Shown piece by piece: positions 47,139 through 54,243 of a DNA stretch of 64,000 nucleotides. The first letter of the stretch is position 1, and each line of letters opens with the position of its first letter. The stretch lies in assembly GCF_024346075.1 (NCBI RefSeq), contig NZ_JAGQEK010000001.1, forward strand, positions 1 to 64,000, written 5' to 3'. The DNA is from Synechococcus sp. Cruz CV12-2-Slac-r. Its GTDB lineage: Bacteria > Cyanobacteriota > Cyanobacteriia > PCC-6307 > Cyanobiaceae. Position numbers and translations under genes: made by a program. Under the pieces are notes generated by a model, which made no database searches, was not told where the DNA came from, and saw nothing but the letters and a program-made list of their open reading frames with translations.

Positions 47139-49058
47139 ATGAATAATCGCTGGCGCACAATCCTTCTCTGGGCCCTTCCCATTGGCCTCGGTTTGTTTTT
47201 GCTCTGGCAAGTGGTGTCTAACGGTGGCCCAGCCAAGGTTGTATCTCAACCAAACCTTGCTCCTCGCAACAGTGCTGTTGCCCGAATGACATACGGGCGC
47301 TTCCTCGATTATGTGGACGCCGGCAGGGTTACATCTGTTGATATTTTTGATGGCGGCCGCAGCGCTGTTGTTGAAGCGGTGGATCCAGATATTGACAACC
47401 GCGTGCAACGTTTACGGGTAGATCTTCCTGGCCTTGCTCCAGAGCTTGTTAACAAATTAAAAGAAGAAGGAATTAGTTTTGATATACACCCCCCTCGCAC
47501 TACGCCACCTGCCCTAGGTATTTTGGGCAATTTATTATTTCCGTTATTACTTATTGGCTCCCTTATTCTGCTGGCTCGCCGTTCCTCCAACATGCCCGGC
47601 GGCCCTGGCCAAGCGATGCAGTTTGGTAAAACCAAAGCTCGTTTTGCAATGGAAGCCGAAACCGGCGTGAAATTTGATGATGTGGCAGGTGTAGAAGAAG
47701 CGAAAGAAGATCTTCAGGAAGTAGTTACTTTCCTCAAACAACCAGAAAGATTTACAGCTGTTGGCGCAACAATTCCCCGAGGTGTTCTATTAGTTGGCCC
47801 CCCTGGAACAGGTAAAACTCTCCTTGCCAAAGCGATTGCGGGGGAGGCAGGGGTTCCTTTCTTCTCACTTGCGGGCTCTGAATTCGTTGAAATGTTTGTT
47901 GGGGTGGGTGCCAGCCGAGTTAGAGATTTGTTTAAGCGCGCTAAAGAGAGCGCACCTTGTTTGATCTTTATTGATGAAATCGACGCAGTTGGTCGTCAGC
48001 GTGGGGCTGGTATCGGTGGAGGCAACGACGAAAGGGAACAAACTTTGAACCAACTTCTCACTGAGATGGATGGTTTTGAAGGCAATAACGGTGTAATCAT
48101 TATTGCTGCAACAAATCGCCCCGATGTGTTGGATTCAGCTCTCATGCGCCCGGGCCGGTTTGATCGCCAAGTAACTGTTGATGCGCCAGATATAAAGGGT
48201 CGTCTTTCTATTTTGAAAGTTCATTCCCGCAATAAAACACTTGCAGAAGATGTAAGCCTTGAGATGATTGCCAGGCGCACCCCTGGCTTTACAGGAGCTG
48301 ATCTTGCAAATTTACTAAATGAAGCAGCGATTCTTACCGCTAGGCGTCGCAAAACAGCCACCAGCCTTGCTGAGATAGACGATGCTGTTGATCGTGTAAT
48401 TGCGGGTATGGAAGGTACGCCCCTCACAGATGGGCGTAGCAAGCGCTTAATTGCTTATCACGAGGTTGGTCATGCCCTAGTGGGCACGCTTGTGCAGCAC
48501 CACGACCCGGTGCAAAAGGTAACTCTTATCCCAAGGGGGCAGGCCCAGGGCCTCACCTGGTTTGCTCCAGATGAAGAGCAAATGCTTGTGAGCCGCGCAC
48601 AATTGAGGGCCCGCATCATGGGGGCGCTTGGGGGAAGGGCCGCTGAGGCAATCGTTTTTGGCCATGCTGAGGTAACAACTGGCGCTGCTGGCGATATTCA
48701 ACAGGTGGCCGGTATGGCCCGCCAAATGGTTACCCGTTTTGGCATGAGTGATTTAGGCCCAATGTCGTTAGAAGCTGGTAATCAAGAGGTATTTGTTGGT
48801 AGAGATTTAATGACCCGCAGCGACGTATCAGATTCAATAACAAATCGTATTGATGGGCAAGTGCGGCTGATCGTTGATAAGTGCTATCAAGACACCTTGG
48901 CGCTCCTTGAGAAGCAGCGCCCCTGCATGGATTGCTTGGTTGAACTATTAATAGAAAGCGAAAGCCTTGATGGCGAAAAATTTAGAGAGGTGGTGAGTCA
49001 GTTCTCCCCTATTCCCGAAAAAGAAAGGTTCTCTCCTTTGTTACCTGCAGGCTCTTGA
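47139..49058 (+). CDS. ftsH: ATP-dependent zinc metalloprotease FtsH
   Basis: Membrane AAA+ protease for quality control, including damaged D1 in cyanobacterial thylakoids. N-terminal helix at about 5-25, a periplasmic domain, a second helix near 130, Walker A GPPGTGKT near 221, Walker B LIFIDEID, the second-region-of-homology arginines, and the zinc site HEVGH near 440. 639 residues is normal. Cyanobacteria have four FtsH paralogues; which one this is cannot be told by eye. Confidence 0.97.
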
Positions 49059-49093
49059 TAAATCACAATAAAAACATCAATCACTTTTAAAAA

Positions 49094-49366
49094 ATGTCAG
49101 AAGATTTAAGTTCATTTGAAGATCCGATTTTACCTGGATTAGATGGCACTCATTCACCTCTAGAAGCACATACAAGTTATAGAGGTGAAGATTGGAGCCC
49201 AGAAAAGCTAGCTTTCCATCAAAATTTAGAACAGTTTGCAGAACGAGTTGGTTTAATCGTTGCCTTGCAAGGTAACGGAAAAGTAAGCCAAGAACATGCT
49301 TATTCTGAAATCAAGCAAATATGGAAACAACTTAGAGACAGTCATTTAGAGCTTTTGAATAAATAA
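49094..49366 (+). CDS. DUF7219-like small conserved protein
   Basis: 90-residue soluble protein of unknown function, found in cyanobacteria. The core is ENLVF-like (here EKLAFHQNLEQFAERVGLIVALQ) followed by a helix EHAYSEIKQIWKQLRDS. I recall the DUF7219 label for such proteins but cannot check it. It follows ftsH by 35 bases and ends 4 bases before the convergent clpP stop, so it may be co-transcribed with ftsH. Confidence 0.75.
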   Translation: MSEDLSSFEDPILPGLDGTHSPLEAHTSYRGEDWSPEKLAFHQNLEQFAERVGLIVALQGNGKVSQEHAYSEIKQIWKQLRDSHLELLNK

Positions 49367-49370
49367 TTAA

Positions 49371-49961
49371 CTATACTGCGTGAATTGGGCGTTGATCTAT
49401 AACTTTGTCTATAAGCCCATAACTAACAGCTTCAACAGGAGACATAAAAAAGTCTCTATCTGTGTCTTTTTTAACCCTTTCTAGAGGCTGATTGGTACGG
49501 CTGGCCAACTCTTCGTTGAGGCGATTCTTAAGATATAAAATTTCATTTGCTTGGATCCGTATATCAGAAGCCTGACCCGAAGCGCCACCCAAAGGTTGGT
49601 GGATCATAATTCTCGAATGTTGGAGGCTGCTGCGTTTTCCAGCCGCTCCTGCAGCAAGAAGAAATGCACCCATGCTGGCAGCTAAACCAACGCAAACTGT
49701 TTGCACATCAGGCTTTACATGTTGCATTGTGTCAAAAATACCCAACCCATCGTAAACAGATCCACCTGGGGAATTTATATATAGAAAAATATCTTTTTCT
49801 GGATCCTCAGCCTCAAGAAATAAAAGTTGGGCAACGATTCTATTTGCAGAATCGGATGTAACTGGTTCTCCTAAGAAAACGATCCGTTCCCTTAGCAACC
49901 TTGAATAGATATCAAAAGCCCTTTCGCCCCTACCTGAATCTTCAATAACAATAGGGATCAT
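49371..49961 (-). CDS. clpP: ATP-dependent Clp protease proteolytic subunit
   Basis: Serine peptidase core of the Clp protease. The catalytic triad is intact: Ser96 in [11 protein letters not shown], His121 in IMIHQPLGG, and Asp170 (or 168) in KKDTDRDFF. The ATG at 49959-49961 gives a normal 196 residues; the frame stays open another 134 codons upstream, but that part is antisense to thf1 and not homologous. Cyanobacteria have several ClpP paralogues; this has the full triad, so it is not ClpR. It diverges from thf1 across 87 bases. Confidence 0.95.
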
Positions 49962-50048
49962 GGCGTTCTTCAAAGTATTTGCACAAATACTACTAACTGC
50001 CCTATGGCTGCCGAGCGCTAAGGTCGTTTTTATCAGAAAGGGAATCCA

Positions 50049-50732
50049 GTGGGTGATTGCCAAACCGTGGCAGACAGCAAAAGGCGTTTCTTCGCCGCTT
50101 ATCCAAGGGTGATCCCCGGGCTCTATCGCCGCGTGGTGGATGAGCTGCTTGTGGAATTGCATCTTCTTTCCTGCCAACAGGGCTTCCAGGCAGATGCTCT
50201 CTTCTCCCTTGGGCTCACCCAAGTATTCGACAATTTCACCAAGGGCTTCCAACCGGAGGATCGCAGGGAAGACCTTTTTGAAGCTCTCTGCGTTGCCACA
50301 AGCCTCAGCACCGAAGTAATGCGGCGGCAAGCCTCGGAACTCACAAACGGAATTTCCCCCCACGGGGAAAAGGAGATCAGCAGCTGGCTAGAAGCCCGCG
50401 GAGAGGGGGCACCTGAACCGCTTAAGCAAGTGTTGCAACAGGCAACTCGCGCCGATTTTCATTATTCCCGGCTCCATGCTGTTGGCTTAATTGCCCTAAT
50501 CCAGGATCTAAGCGGCGGCAATGATCAAGAACCTGAAGCGATTCGTAAGCGCGCTGCAAGCGTTGGCGAACAAATGGGGCTGCAACAAGAAAAACTTGAT
50601 AAAGACATGGGTCTTTATGCAAGCAATTTAGAAAAGATGGCCCAAGCGGTGGAAATGATGGAAGAAACCGTGGCTTCGGTAAAACGCCGGCGGGAGCGTC
50701 AGTCCAGCGTTTCTGAAACACCTATCACTTGA
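50049..50732 (+). CDS. thf1: Thylakoid formation protein Thf1 / Psb29
   Basis: Needed for photosystem II biogenesis and FtsH stability in cyanobacteria and plants. The conserved N-terminus reads [35 protein letters not shown] (in parts), followed by [13 protein letters not shown] and [14 protein letters not shown]. The C-terminal third is a charged coiled-coil-like helix. 227 residues, starting at GTG 50049. It stands opposite clpP, with ftsH 3 genes away, which suits a protease-linked role. Confidence 0.93.
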
Positions 50733-51970
50733 GCAGCAGCTCCTGCCCTACCAGCTCGCCAATGGCCCTTAAACAGGGCCGACTTTTTTAATACCAAAGG
50801 CATATCTCCTGGCAACAGGCCGCGTTGATCGAGAAGCCGGGGAGCCGCCACAAGCGTGAGACCAGACAACTGCTTGAAACCAGATAAAACCACACCTGGC
50901 GCTAGCTGATTATTTGGAGAAGCGCCCAGCACAATTAGAAGCTTGTTGCTCTGCTGCCATCGCCAACCGGCCTGCACCCAACCCTTAGGGTTTCGCAGTT
51001 CAGAAACACCGTTTCGGCTTTTTAGCTGCAGTTCAGCTGGCAATTGTGTTTTTAAACGCTCTAAAAGCCTTTCAAAATCTTGCCGGGCTCGCTTGCCCTG
51101 GGGCTGAAGGCTGATCCAAATGCTGGCTTGATAGGGGTTATTCGCTGGATTAAAAAGCAGCTGCAGCTGAAAGGGGCTTTGCAGTAAAAGTTTTTTGCTA
51201 GCCCCATCGAGCAAAGGCTCTAACAAGGGCCCCAGTAGTGGGGCCAATGAATCCCCCTGCAGTAACAAAGGAGCTGCACTGGTTGGCCAAACCGGTTCTT
51301 GGGGTTGTGCCATAGGAGCAGTGGAGCGCAAAACCCCGTCGCCACCCCTTGTTTTTCCCCACCAGCGCATACCTTGCAACTGGAAACACCCCTGCTGCAA
51401 CGGCATTAAAAATGGCGACCAATTAGCCGTTGTTGCCACTAAGCCAGATCCCGACCAAAACAAGGCTGCGTCTGAGCTCTCCAAGGCCGCACAGCGGGGG
51501 CCAAAACGATGCTGAGCTGGATTGCGAAGCGATTGCTGCAAACTCTGCAAACCCAAGGCATCAGCTGCCACTACGCGATATGGGCCCCAGCGCAGGCTTA
51601 AAGGAACCGTATCCGCTTCTCTACCAGCTCTCAGCAATAGCAGAGGGGATGAATCCGCATGGGGACCCCAAATCTGCAACCAAGAACCTTTGCCTTGCCG
51701 CCACAAGCGCATTGCTAAAAGCGGAGGCAGGCGTTGTTTCCAGATCCGCGGCAATGGTTGCTGCGGCTGAATCGGCAAGCTCTGGGCTAAGGATGCCTGG
51801 CTCAACAGTGATTTCAAATCACCCTGCGGAGGCTTAGGGGCCGTGATCCATAAAATAAAACCGCCAAATAGGGGAATTAGGCATACCCCAAAGCTGGCTT
51901 TCAATTTTTGCCGGGGCGTCGAGGAGCGCGAGGGGAACTCACTGCCGCCCGGCGACGTTTGTCTTTCCAT
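50699..51970 (-). CDS. Membrane-anchored protein of unknown function
   Basis: 423 residues with one membrane helix near residue 28-44 (FGVCLIPLFGGFILWI) and a long external part rich in Leu, Gln, Trp and Pro. No known domain is recognised; the FERLLERLKTQLPAEL and GDMPLVLKKS regions suggest a mixed fold like DUF3352. The ATG at 51970 lies inside the 58-residue gene upstream; a TTG at 51902-51904 overlaps that gene's stop (TTGA) and gives 401 residues starting near the helix, so the shorter form is plausible. Its end overlaps thf1 by 34 bases. Confidence 0.7.
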   Translation of the reverse strand: MERQTSPGGSEFPSRSSTPRQKLKASFGVCLIPLFGGFILWITAPKPPQGDLKSLLSQASLAQSLPIQPQQPLPRIWKQRLPPLLAMRLWRQGKGSWLQIWGPHADSSPLLLLRAGREADTVPLSLRWGPYRVVAADALGLQSLQQSLRNPAQHRFGPRCAALESSDAALFWSGSGLVATTANWSPFLMPLQQGCFQLQGMRWWGKTRGGDGVLRSTAPMAQPQEPVWPTSAAPLLLQGDSLAPLLGPLLEPLLDGASKKLLLQSPFQLQLLFNPANNPYQASIWISLQPQGKRARQDFERLLERLKTQLPAELQLKSRNGVSELRNPKGWVQAGWRWQQSNKLLIVLGASPNNQLAPGVVLSGFKQLSGLTLVAAPRLLDQRGLLPGDMPLVLKKSALFKGHWRAGRAGAAAQVIGVSETLD

Positions 51971-52077
51971 TCCATCGCCGATAGATAAACAACTCCACCA
52001 CTAACAAACACCAGCAGCAGTGCCGCCACTCCAGCTAAAGCCGAGTTTAAGGTTAAATCGAGTTGTAATTCAGGCAT
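51901..52077 (-). CDS. 58-residue single-span membrane protein behind petN
   Basis: Starts ATG 52075-52077, 17 bases after the petN stop, and ends TGA at 51901-51903. Sequence: MPELQLDLTLNSALAG, a helix VAALLLVFVSGGVVYLSA (about residues 17-34), then a strongly basic tail with EWKDKRRRAA and a Pro/Arg-rich end. Layout, one helix then a positive cytoplasmic tail, is that of small photosynthetic complex subunits, but it matches none I know (PetG, PetL, PetM, PsbX, PsbY, Psb30 rejected). The downstream 423-residue gene may start inside its stop. Confidence 0.75.
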   Translation of the reverse strand: MPELQLDLTLNSALAGVAALLLVFVSGGVVYLSAMEWKDKRRRAAVSSPRAPRRPGKN

Positions 52078-52094
52078 TACAGCCGGCTTAAAAT

Positions 52095-52196
52095 TTAGAA
52101 ATTAATCGAACCATCACCATTGCGACCCCACACCACCATCGCAATAGAGAAGGTAAAAGTAGCCGCTAGAGCAGCCCAGCCCAAAGTGATCAACAT
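52095..52196 (-). CDS. petN: Cytochrome b6f complex subunit PetN
   Basis: 33-residue, one-helix subunit of the cytochrome b6f complex. The sequence [18 protein letters not shown], then WGRNG and DGSINF, matches PetN almost residue for residue. The ATG is at 52194-52196; the longer frame to 52289 adds unrelated residues. First gene of a three-gene minus-strand unit with the 58-residue protein and the 423-residue membrane protein. clpS diverges across 77 bases. Confidence 0.95.
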
Positions 52197-52273
52197 ATGA
52201 AAGCATTCAATTTCGTTAATCCTACCGAAAGGGGCGCTGAGCGGAGCAGAATAAAAATATCTAGATTTCAATC

Positions 52274-52570
52274 GTGACGACAAGCACACCCGAACTCAAA
52301 CCATCCGGGAGCGCCACTCTTGAAAGGGCTCCATACCCGGCTTACAAGGTGGTGGTTTTAAATGATGAGATAAATACATTTCAACATGTAGTGGATTGTT
52401 TGTTGAAATACATACCCGCAATGAATCCTGATCGCGCTTGGGCCCTTGCCCAAGCCATTGATAACGAAGGCCAGGCAGTGGTTTGGGTGGGGCCGATGGA
52501 ACAAGCAGAGCTCTATCACATGCAGCTCGGATCAGAGGGTTTATCCATGGCTCCGTTAGAGCGCGCCTGA
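52274..52570 (+). CDS. clpS: ATP-dependent Clp protease adaptor ClpS
   Basis: Delivers N-end-rule substrates to ClpAP/Clp[26 protein letters not shown] is the ClpS core (in parts), with [16 protein letters not shown] for the second part of the fold. 98 residues, GTG start at 52274. A disordered N-terminal tail of about 20 residues is usual. Near clpP and ftsH. DUF2103 follows after 8 bases. Confidence 0.93.
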
Positions 52571-52578
52571 GGTAAGAA

Positions 52579-52851
52579 TTGGGAAGGCTGGTTATTACCC
52601 ACAGCACTTACCTCGATGGCTTGATCCCCCTGTTGAAAATTTTGGCTAGTAAACCGTATATAGATACAGTTACCCCAGCAGTTATCAGCAGGGTTAACGG
52701 ACGCTGTGAGGGATTAAAGATACGTGTATCTACTGAAATTAAAGGCGGTTACAAACTAATTGCCCGTAGGGGAAGTAGTGCCCAAGAGGTATTTGTAGTA
52801 ACTAAATTGAGCCAAGCTGCTTTGAAGGAACTGCTGGCTGCAATCGATTAA
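52579..52851 (+). CDS. DUF2103 family protein
   Basis: 90-residue protein of a prokaryotic family annotated as possible metal-binding, function unknown. GRLVITHSTYLDGLIPLL opens the protein and VISRVNGRCEGLKIRVST is the middle strand pair. Single Cys (GRCEG). Starts TTG 52579, 8 bases after clpS, so probably co-transcribed. Confidence 0.85.
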   Translation: MGRLVITHSTYLDGLIPLLKILASKPYIDTVTPAVISRVNGRCEGLKIRVSTEIKGGYKLIARRGSSAQEVFVVTKLSQAALKELLAAID

Positions 52852-52879
52852 AATTAAAGAGTATTTAGAAAGTGATTGA

Positions 52880-53097
52880 AAGTGTTTGAAAGGGGTGAAC
52901 CGCCATGCCGTGGTGCCCTCAGTCTTCGACCTGGAAGAACCAGAAGGGAATGGAAAGCGGGGCTTCATTTCCGGCTACGGGGCCGGTATACGTCACCATC
53001 GCGACACCACTCCCATGTCGAAAAGGGAGTCAGATCAGAACACTGGAAAGGGCAAACACCAACGCAGCAGTTCAACTCAAATCTAAGGCTTTCAAGC
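52880..53097 (+). other. Structured region upstream of purK end: candidate RNA or small gene
   Basis: All three plus-strand frames stay open through most of this stretch (66, 66 and 85 codons). A good ribosome site AAAGGGGTGA at 52889-52898 precedes ATG 52905 (66 codons, to 53105). It also folds: GTTTGAAAG (52884-52892) pairs with CTTTCAAGC (53089-53097); CGTGGTG-CCCT (52909-52919) with AGGG-CACC-CG (53049-53064, bulged); inner hairpins TCTTC/GAAGA, CCGGC/GCCGG (52971-52986) and ACTCCC/GGGAGT (53009-53030). Cyanobacterial 6S RNA lies near purK in some species, from memory. Whether this is an RNA or a coding gene is open; strand uncertain. Confidence 0.4.
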
Positions 53098-54243
53098 TGG
53101 GTTAGGCCAGATACTCCTCACTCTCGCGAGTAATTCCAAGGCCTCGCGGCGGCGCAAAACCGGATCGCAAGCTTGCAAGAGCAGAGTTATGTGGCCAAGC
53201 TTGCGCCCACGCCTGGTTAAGCGTTTTCCATACCAATGCAGATGGGCCTGAGGTAGAGCCTGCAATAAATTGCGTTGTTCTTGGTAGGTGTTGTTGGATT
53301 CTTCAAAGCCCACCAGATTCACCATCAATGCCCCAGGCACCAACAAGGCCGTTGAACCAAGCCGTTGGTTACTGAGCACATTTAATTGTTGGCAAAACTG
53401 ACTCGTAACACAAGCTTCGATTGTGTAATGGCCGGAATTATGACTACGAGGCGCCAATTCATTTATCAGCAAACCCTGGGGGGAAAGGAAAAATTCAACG
53501 GCCAACAGCCCCACGTAGTTGATTGCGGTAACGATTGAAACCGCCATGGATCGGGCGCGGGCTTCAACGCCGTGGTTCACATGGGCCGGGGCAAGCACCC
53601 ACTCGCATTGATGTTGGTGTTGGTGGGTTTCCACCAGAGGGAAAACGCTGATCTCACCAGCTGAATTTCTTGCCACCAAAATTGAGAGCTCTTTTTCATA
53701 ATTCACCAATTCCTCAAGAATCCACTCGCGGCAATCCACTCGCATCAATAGGGCCTCGAAGGCAGCACGGTTGAGCAATTTCTCCGTACCTCGCCCGTCG
53801 TAGCCGCCAGCGGCGGCCTTTGCCATCAATGGAAATTCAAACTGCGCAGGCAGCTTGCCACCAGCACTAACAACAGTTGCCAGGTCACACCAGCCTGGGC
53901 TTGGCAAATTGAGCCTTTCCAACAAGTTGCGTTGCTGGCGTTTATCCACCACCTGCGCCAACACTTCAGCGCAGGGTTGAAATTCAACGCCCTCAACCTC
54001 TAAGGCCTGAATTGCTTCAAGATCTACCCATTCATTTTCAAAGCCGATTCGCTTGCATTGTTTTGCCAATTGGGTAGTGGCATCACCATTTTCAGAAGGC
54101 CCAAAAACTGCTGCTGCTGCAAGAGCAACCGCCGCATCATCTGGATCACTGGCCTGGAGGTGAAGTTCCAGGCCCATCTTTTGGGCAGCCTCAGCAAGCA
54201 TCCCGGCCAGCTGACCGCTACCAACTATTCCAACGGGCATCAA
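53092..54243 (-). CDS. purK: 5-(carboxyamino)imidazole ribonucleotide synthase
   Basis: ATP-grasp enzyme that carboxylates AIR on nitrogen, in purine synthesis. VGIVGSGQLAGMLAEAA opens the Rossmann part; KAAAGGYDGRGTE and WILEELVNYEKELSILVARN (in part) hold the ATP site; LLINELAPRSHNSGHYTIEA is the PurK signature. 383 residues is normal. It ends 6 bases past the last open frame of the structured region, tail to tail. purE is not in the window. Confidence 0.95.
   Translation of the reverse strand: MMPVGIVGSGQLAGMLAEAAQKMGLELHLQASDPDDAAVALAAAAVFGPSENGDATTQLAKQCKRIGFENEWVDLEAIQALEVEGVEFQPCAEVLAQVVDKRQQRNLLERLNLPSPGWCDLATVVSAGGKLPAQFEFPLMAKAAAGGYDGRGTEKLLNRAAFEALLMRVDCREWILEELVNYEKELSILVARNSAGEISVFPLVETHQHQHQCEWVLAPAHVNHGVEARARSMAVSIVTAINYVGLLAVEFFLSPQGLLINELAPRSHNSGHYTIEACVTSQFCQQLNVLSNQRLGSTALLVPGALMVNLVGFEESNNTYQEQRNLLQALPQAHLHWYGKRLTRRGRKLGHITLLLQACDPVLRRREALELLARVRSIWPNPA

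Follow-up and report, generated by a model that had tools for sequence, protein, structure and literature searches.

The closest described counterpart of the gene analysed here is sgl0002 of Synechocystis sp. PCC 6803, a hypothetical gene, encoding 49 residues, that lies on the minus strand at 159961-159812, 42 nt behind petN (160093-160004) (PMC5126843). Its transcript clusters with those of PSII, PSI, cytochrome b6f and phycobilisome genes, one hydrophobic domain has been predicted in its product, and its location near petN has been remarked upon (PMC4770689). In Synechocystis petN itself is essential, going by the title of Schneider et al. (2007), which PMC4770689 cites. Within the main texts of the literature searched, sgl0002 was named in these two papers and not found elsewhere. 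Among better characterized proteins, the one-helix NDH-1 subunits NdhP (sml0013) and NdhQ are ubiquitous in cyanobacteria (PMC4131877) and share their size, single helix and cyanobacterial ubiquity with the protein considered here. The PSII subunit PsbX likewise has one helix, a basic RD..RR end and about 40 residues. PetP, the regulatory subunit of Synechocystis b6f, is a small soluble protein rather than a one-helix protein and is comparable in role only, as a small, loosely bound component serving photosynthetic regulation instead of core catalysis.

The stretch of DNA analysed (the window) comprises 64,000 nucleotides of Synechococcus sp. Cruz CV12-2-Slac-r (contig NZ_JAGQEK010000001.1). 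Like sgl0002, the small gene of the window is encoded on the minus strand directly behind petN; its product differs from the 49-residue Synechocystis protein in having 58 residues, an extended tail and an ATG start. A further genome (G245) carries a 29-residue petN, a 42-nt gap and then a GTG-started family member of 49 residues. Because this layout equals the published arrangement of petN and sgl0002, sgl0002 is very probably the Synechocystis member of the family, an assignment that rests on position, spacing and length. The initial annotation described the window protein as unrecognised, which holds in that it has neither a family match nor an annotation; a hypothetical gene with known co-expression and a petN-proximal location was, however, already on record. 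What is new is the near-universality of the family and its loss with the photosystems.

Results

The small gene and its product

The initial annotation was accurate as to the open reading frame itself, which runs on the minus strand from an ATG at 52077 to a TGA at 51903-51901 and begins 17 nt after the petN stop codon. Hydropathy, charge and structure prediction likewise fit the single helix and basic tail that it described. The protein contains one hydrophobic stretch with a mean Kyte-Doolittle value of 2.36, and its net charge is -2 on the N-terminal side and +7 on the C-terminal side. AlphaFold2, supplied with a 20-sequence alignment, returned one helix spanning residues 3-46 with a mean pLDDT of 80; residues 11-30 score about 95, the tail about 62. 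We infer a membrane location and, since the tail is basic, the positive-inside rule predicts a cytoplasmic tail and an acidic or neutral N-terminus that would be outside or lumenal. In an alignment of 29 family sequences (A1), L21, Y31, L32 and D39 are invariant, and the best-conserved region is the EWKDKRRR/EWRDRRR motif together with Y31-L32. The window protein carries the family signature Y-L-[ST]-x-x-[ED]-W-[RK]-D-[RK]-R-R, which characterizes single-copy, one-helix proteins of about 45-60 residues. The EWRDRRR motif was not found quoted in the literature searched.

Table 1 Coordinates of the small gene and its neighbours within the window
Feature	Position	Strand	Evidence
sgl0002-family gene, 58 aa	51901..52077	-	search matches, selection, AlphaFold2 model
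Predicted hydrophobic core of helix, residues 14-32	51982..52038	-	hydropathy; model helix 3-46
Motif EWKDKRRR (family consensus EWRDRRR)	51949..51972	-	alignment A1
petN, cytochrome b6f subunit 8, directly upstream of the small gene	52095..52196	-	PF03742, 5e-17 (Pfam); NF002709, 6.5e-23 (NCBIfam)
TTGA, shared by the small gene (TGA stop) and the next gene (probable TTG start)	51901..51904	-	conserved in G002, G003
Next gene, about 401 aa from TTG, without family match	50699..51904	-	

Conservation and selection

Of 60 relatives, 48 gave a match in a protein search; among these relatives, 23 genomes came from other families of the class, and 22 of them matched. The profile built from alignment A1 detected the family in 376 genomes out of 390 from Cyanobacteriia, with rarely more than one match per genome. 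A draw across the phylum gave matches in 86 of 89 members of the class, whereas the 105 genomes belonging to other classes gave none. Seven of the eight profile-negative draft genomes that were checked lack petN as well, so these negatives are probably assembly gaps. Horizontal or phage carriage was considered and rejected, as no family match was found in phage records, viral contigs or PHROGs. Between the window and a congener (G003), the small-gene frame shows a pS of 0.48 and a pN of 0.137 (Fisher 5e-6), with 23 of 38 differences falling at third positions. Absence of conservation among relatives, or near-neutral change, had been named beforehand as grounds for dismissing the frame; the matches are instead class-wide and the frame is under purifying selection.

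These results confirm the small open reading frame as a real, conserved gene. Its small size and the overlapping same-strand frame could suggest a spurious open reading frame, or conservation imposed by the overlapping gene, but we give this explanation virtually no credence in view of the class-wide conservation, the purifying selection present in the small-gene frame and absent from the other, and the decay of the gene in photosystem-free genomes described below. The overlap noted in the initial annotation probably persists in a much reduced form. An overlap of 70 nt would require the next gene to begin at ATG 51970, a codon that is present because the conserved E-W codons (GAATGG) force it. 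Within the shared stretch the small-gene frame is constrained (pS 0.53, pN 0.17) and the frame of the next gene is not (pS 0.13, pN 0.31). Downstream of a TTG at 51904, conserved in G002 and G003, the frame of the next gene is under strong constraint, with a pS of 0.81 and a pN of 0.23 (Fisher 6e-7). Judging from these substitution patterns, the 70 nt probably reflect a misassigned start codon, and the true overlap is most likely the four nucleotides TTGA, of the kind seen in translationally coupled operons. The next gene has no Pfam or NCBIfam match; between congeners it is under purifying selection near its start, and a TTG start is probable.

Linkage to petN

The same-strand position behind petN, for which conservation among relatives had been proposed as a check, holds across most of the class. 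Of 80 named genomes, a set found with a narrower alignment (A2) and therefore biased toward YLTx[AVI]EWRD members, 51 have petN immediately upstream of the small gene, or 52 if one near-miss of the petN pattern is counted, and the spacing is typically 3-130 nt. The remaining 28-29 loci, in which petN is not directly upstream, come mostly from filamentous cyanobacteria, namely Microcoleus, Laspinema, Okeania and their relatives, and their existence means that the gene needs no adjoining petN. Three families (f13, f33 and f30), which we take to be deep-branching from their sequence divergence and the size of their genomes, also carry petN followed directly by the small gene; the pair therefore looks ancestral and broken later.

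Often, as at the Microcoleus/Laspinema-type loci L078-L083, L114, L145, L146, L150 and L156, a conserved protein of about 564 residues stands upstream in place of petN; by eye, it has a beta-propeller-like start and a transglutaminase-like end. The wider neighbourhood in the window (47139-54243) holds ftsH, clpP and thf1/psb29, then petN and the divergent clpS, a cluster of proteostasis and photosynthesis genes. In the listed clpP frame (49371-50363, minus) a long N-terminal extension runs antisense to thf1 (50049-50732, plus); the NCBIfam matches of the clpP frame begin at residues 131-135, and its real start is probably further in.

Comparison with known small subunits

The statement that the protein matches none of the known small subunits is upheld by searches of Pfam, NCBIfam, PHROGs and PDB sequences, none of which returned a match to the window protein. 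A family member from Thermosynechococcus, the genus from which many photosynthetic complexes have been solved, returned nothing relevant from PDB sequences in a search that covered chains of known residues. Because PetN, used as a control, finds its own chains at 2e-8 to 3e-6, sequence comparison argues that the small protein is not a stable, modelled subunit of the solved complexes.

Several individual identities were evaluated and rejected. NdhP, the first guess, is encoded elsewhere in Synechocystis (sml0013, at 3188105; PMC5126843) and the solved NDH-1 chains give no match; a one-helix NDH-1 subunit of the NdhP/NdhQ kind is further opposed by the intact ndhA of genomes that have lost the small gene. 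A core subunit of b6f was discarded on the lack of a PDB match and on the four genomes in which petN and petA are intact but the small gene is a pseudogene. Weak profile resemblances were obtained to PsbX (E 0.31, the best among photosynthetic PDB matches) and to PsbZ (best member E 0.0013), the latter being left as chance. The window protein has no PF06596 match, and the true PsbX of the same genome is a separate gene (G000:C193). PsbX also differs from the small gene in being absent from the PSII-free UCYN-A types described below.

Genomes with reduced photosystems

Five genomes of one family (that of G371) lack the small gene. Of these, G371, G399, G453 and G454 are single contigs of 2.5-3.1 Mb and share their genus with G365 (4.7 Mb), whereas the fifth is a fragmented draft; a genome-wide search of each of the four single-contig genomes found no family match. 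In all four, psaA/B and psbA/D are absent or riddled with stop codons, petN, petA and ndhA are intact, and the position behind petN is occupied by gene remnants whose frameshifts and stops are apparent when aligned to the intact G365 gene. Since petN, petA and ndhA persist without it, neither b6f nor NDH-1 as such requires the small gene. G371 and G399 would be of the Epithemia turgida/Rhopalodia gibberula spheroid-body type. The Rhopalodia gibberula spheroid body, with a genome of about 3.02 Mb, has no functional PSI or PSII genes and retains nine of ten chlorophyll genes intact (PMC5638926), which suggests that decay of the small gene preceded the loss of pigment synthesis in this symbiont.

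Two smaller genomes, G419 (1.49 Mb) and G420 (1.44 Mb), encode full-length psaA and psaB and an intact petN, with no Photo_RC match found; PSI without PSII is the known UCYN-A configuration (PMC6315102). Both carry an intact 44-residue small-gene frame behind petN, and comparison of the two gives a pS of 0.50 and a pN of 0.11 (Fisher 4e-5), a signal that other frames lack. The gene is thus kept under selection in PSII-free genomes and is therefore not PSII-specific. In UCYN-A-type members (L066 and L067, directly behind petN) the helix and YLT are kept while the WRDRRR signature is lost, the tails being degraded to DRHSSYFQKQ and DRYGRYSQKQ. As EWRDRRR has disappeared where the helix persists, the helix may have one partner and the tail another, the latter partner possibly being one missing from UCYN-A, such as PSII. 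Loss together with PSI, and retention with PSI after the loss of PSII, is the pattern expected of a PSI factor, although in effect the endosymbionts provide a single event of loss and a single retention, and photosystem loss comes with many other losses, so that PSI itself is not singled out.

Discussion

The proposal that a one-helix protein in this position would be a subunit or assembly factor of a photosynthetic complex fares well in that the gene tracks photosynthesis; a straightforward link to b6f is at odds with the four genomes in which petN and petA are intact and the gene is lost. Our preferred explanation, which we advance tentatively, is an accessory or assembly factor on the PSI side of photosystem-dependent electron transport, acting in PSI biogenesis or in a photosynthetic mode of b6f such as PSI-b6f cyclic flow. 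Which PSI-side step is served can be pictured in two ways: the one-helix protein might help PSI biogenesis or, as petN linkage would favour, it might be a photosynthesis-only partner of b6f, for example in PSI-b6f cyclic flow. Because solved PSI complexes lack the small protein, any association would be transient or easily lost. Counting against a PSI-side role is the co-expression, which covers photosynthetic genes in general and not PSI in particular.

The petN position, offered initially as a hint toward b6f, retains some force because the gene stands behind petN in most genomes, and is weakened by its persistence unlinked in Microcoleus/Laspinema types. It would fit a PetP-like regulator or auxiliary subunit that binds b6f loosely, is needed only where photosystems are present and is stripped off in purification. 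The adjacency is ancestral, widespread and usually within about 100 nt, and loss with the photosystems is compatible with such a protein if its role is photosynthetic only. We nevertheless regard it as rather unlikely, given the four genomes that keep petN and petA without the gene, the unlinked minority of the named loci, and the solved b6f sequences, which yield no match although PetN finds its chains. A role in thylakoid biogenesis that extends to chlorophyll-binding proteins in general, such as assisting their co-translational insertion through the basic tail, seems unlikely: co-expression with PSII, PSI and phycobilisome genes (PMC4770689), the predicted cytoplasmic tail and loss only where both photosystems are lost agree with it, but no partner evidence points to it and the UCYN-A tail is degraded even though PSI genes are kept. 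An assignment to PSII, as a subunit or assembly factor, is disfavoured and in our view very improbable; one-helix subunits are common in PSII and the PsbX and PsbZ resemblances lean that way, against which stand the intact, selected gene of G419 and G420, genomes without PSII reaction-centre genes, and the separate PsbX locus of the same genomes, the window's own included.

Returning to the preferred PSI-side explanation, its broadest form, a near-universal protein that couples PSI with b6f or is needed to build PSI and that predates the radiation of the class, is possible but on the doubtful side; its presence before the class radiated is suggested by the petN pairing in deep-branching families. 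The family represents a near-universal cyanobacterial gene that is yet without a name, a family model in the searched libraries or a match in a solved complex. The pattern of decay next to an intact petN where the photosystems have gone, and of survival where PSII alone has gone, turns an open reading frame of 135-177 bp into a testable component of the light reactions, for which Synechocystis sgl0002 provides a tractable model.
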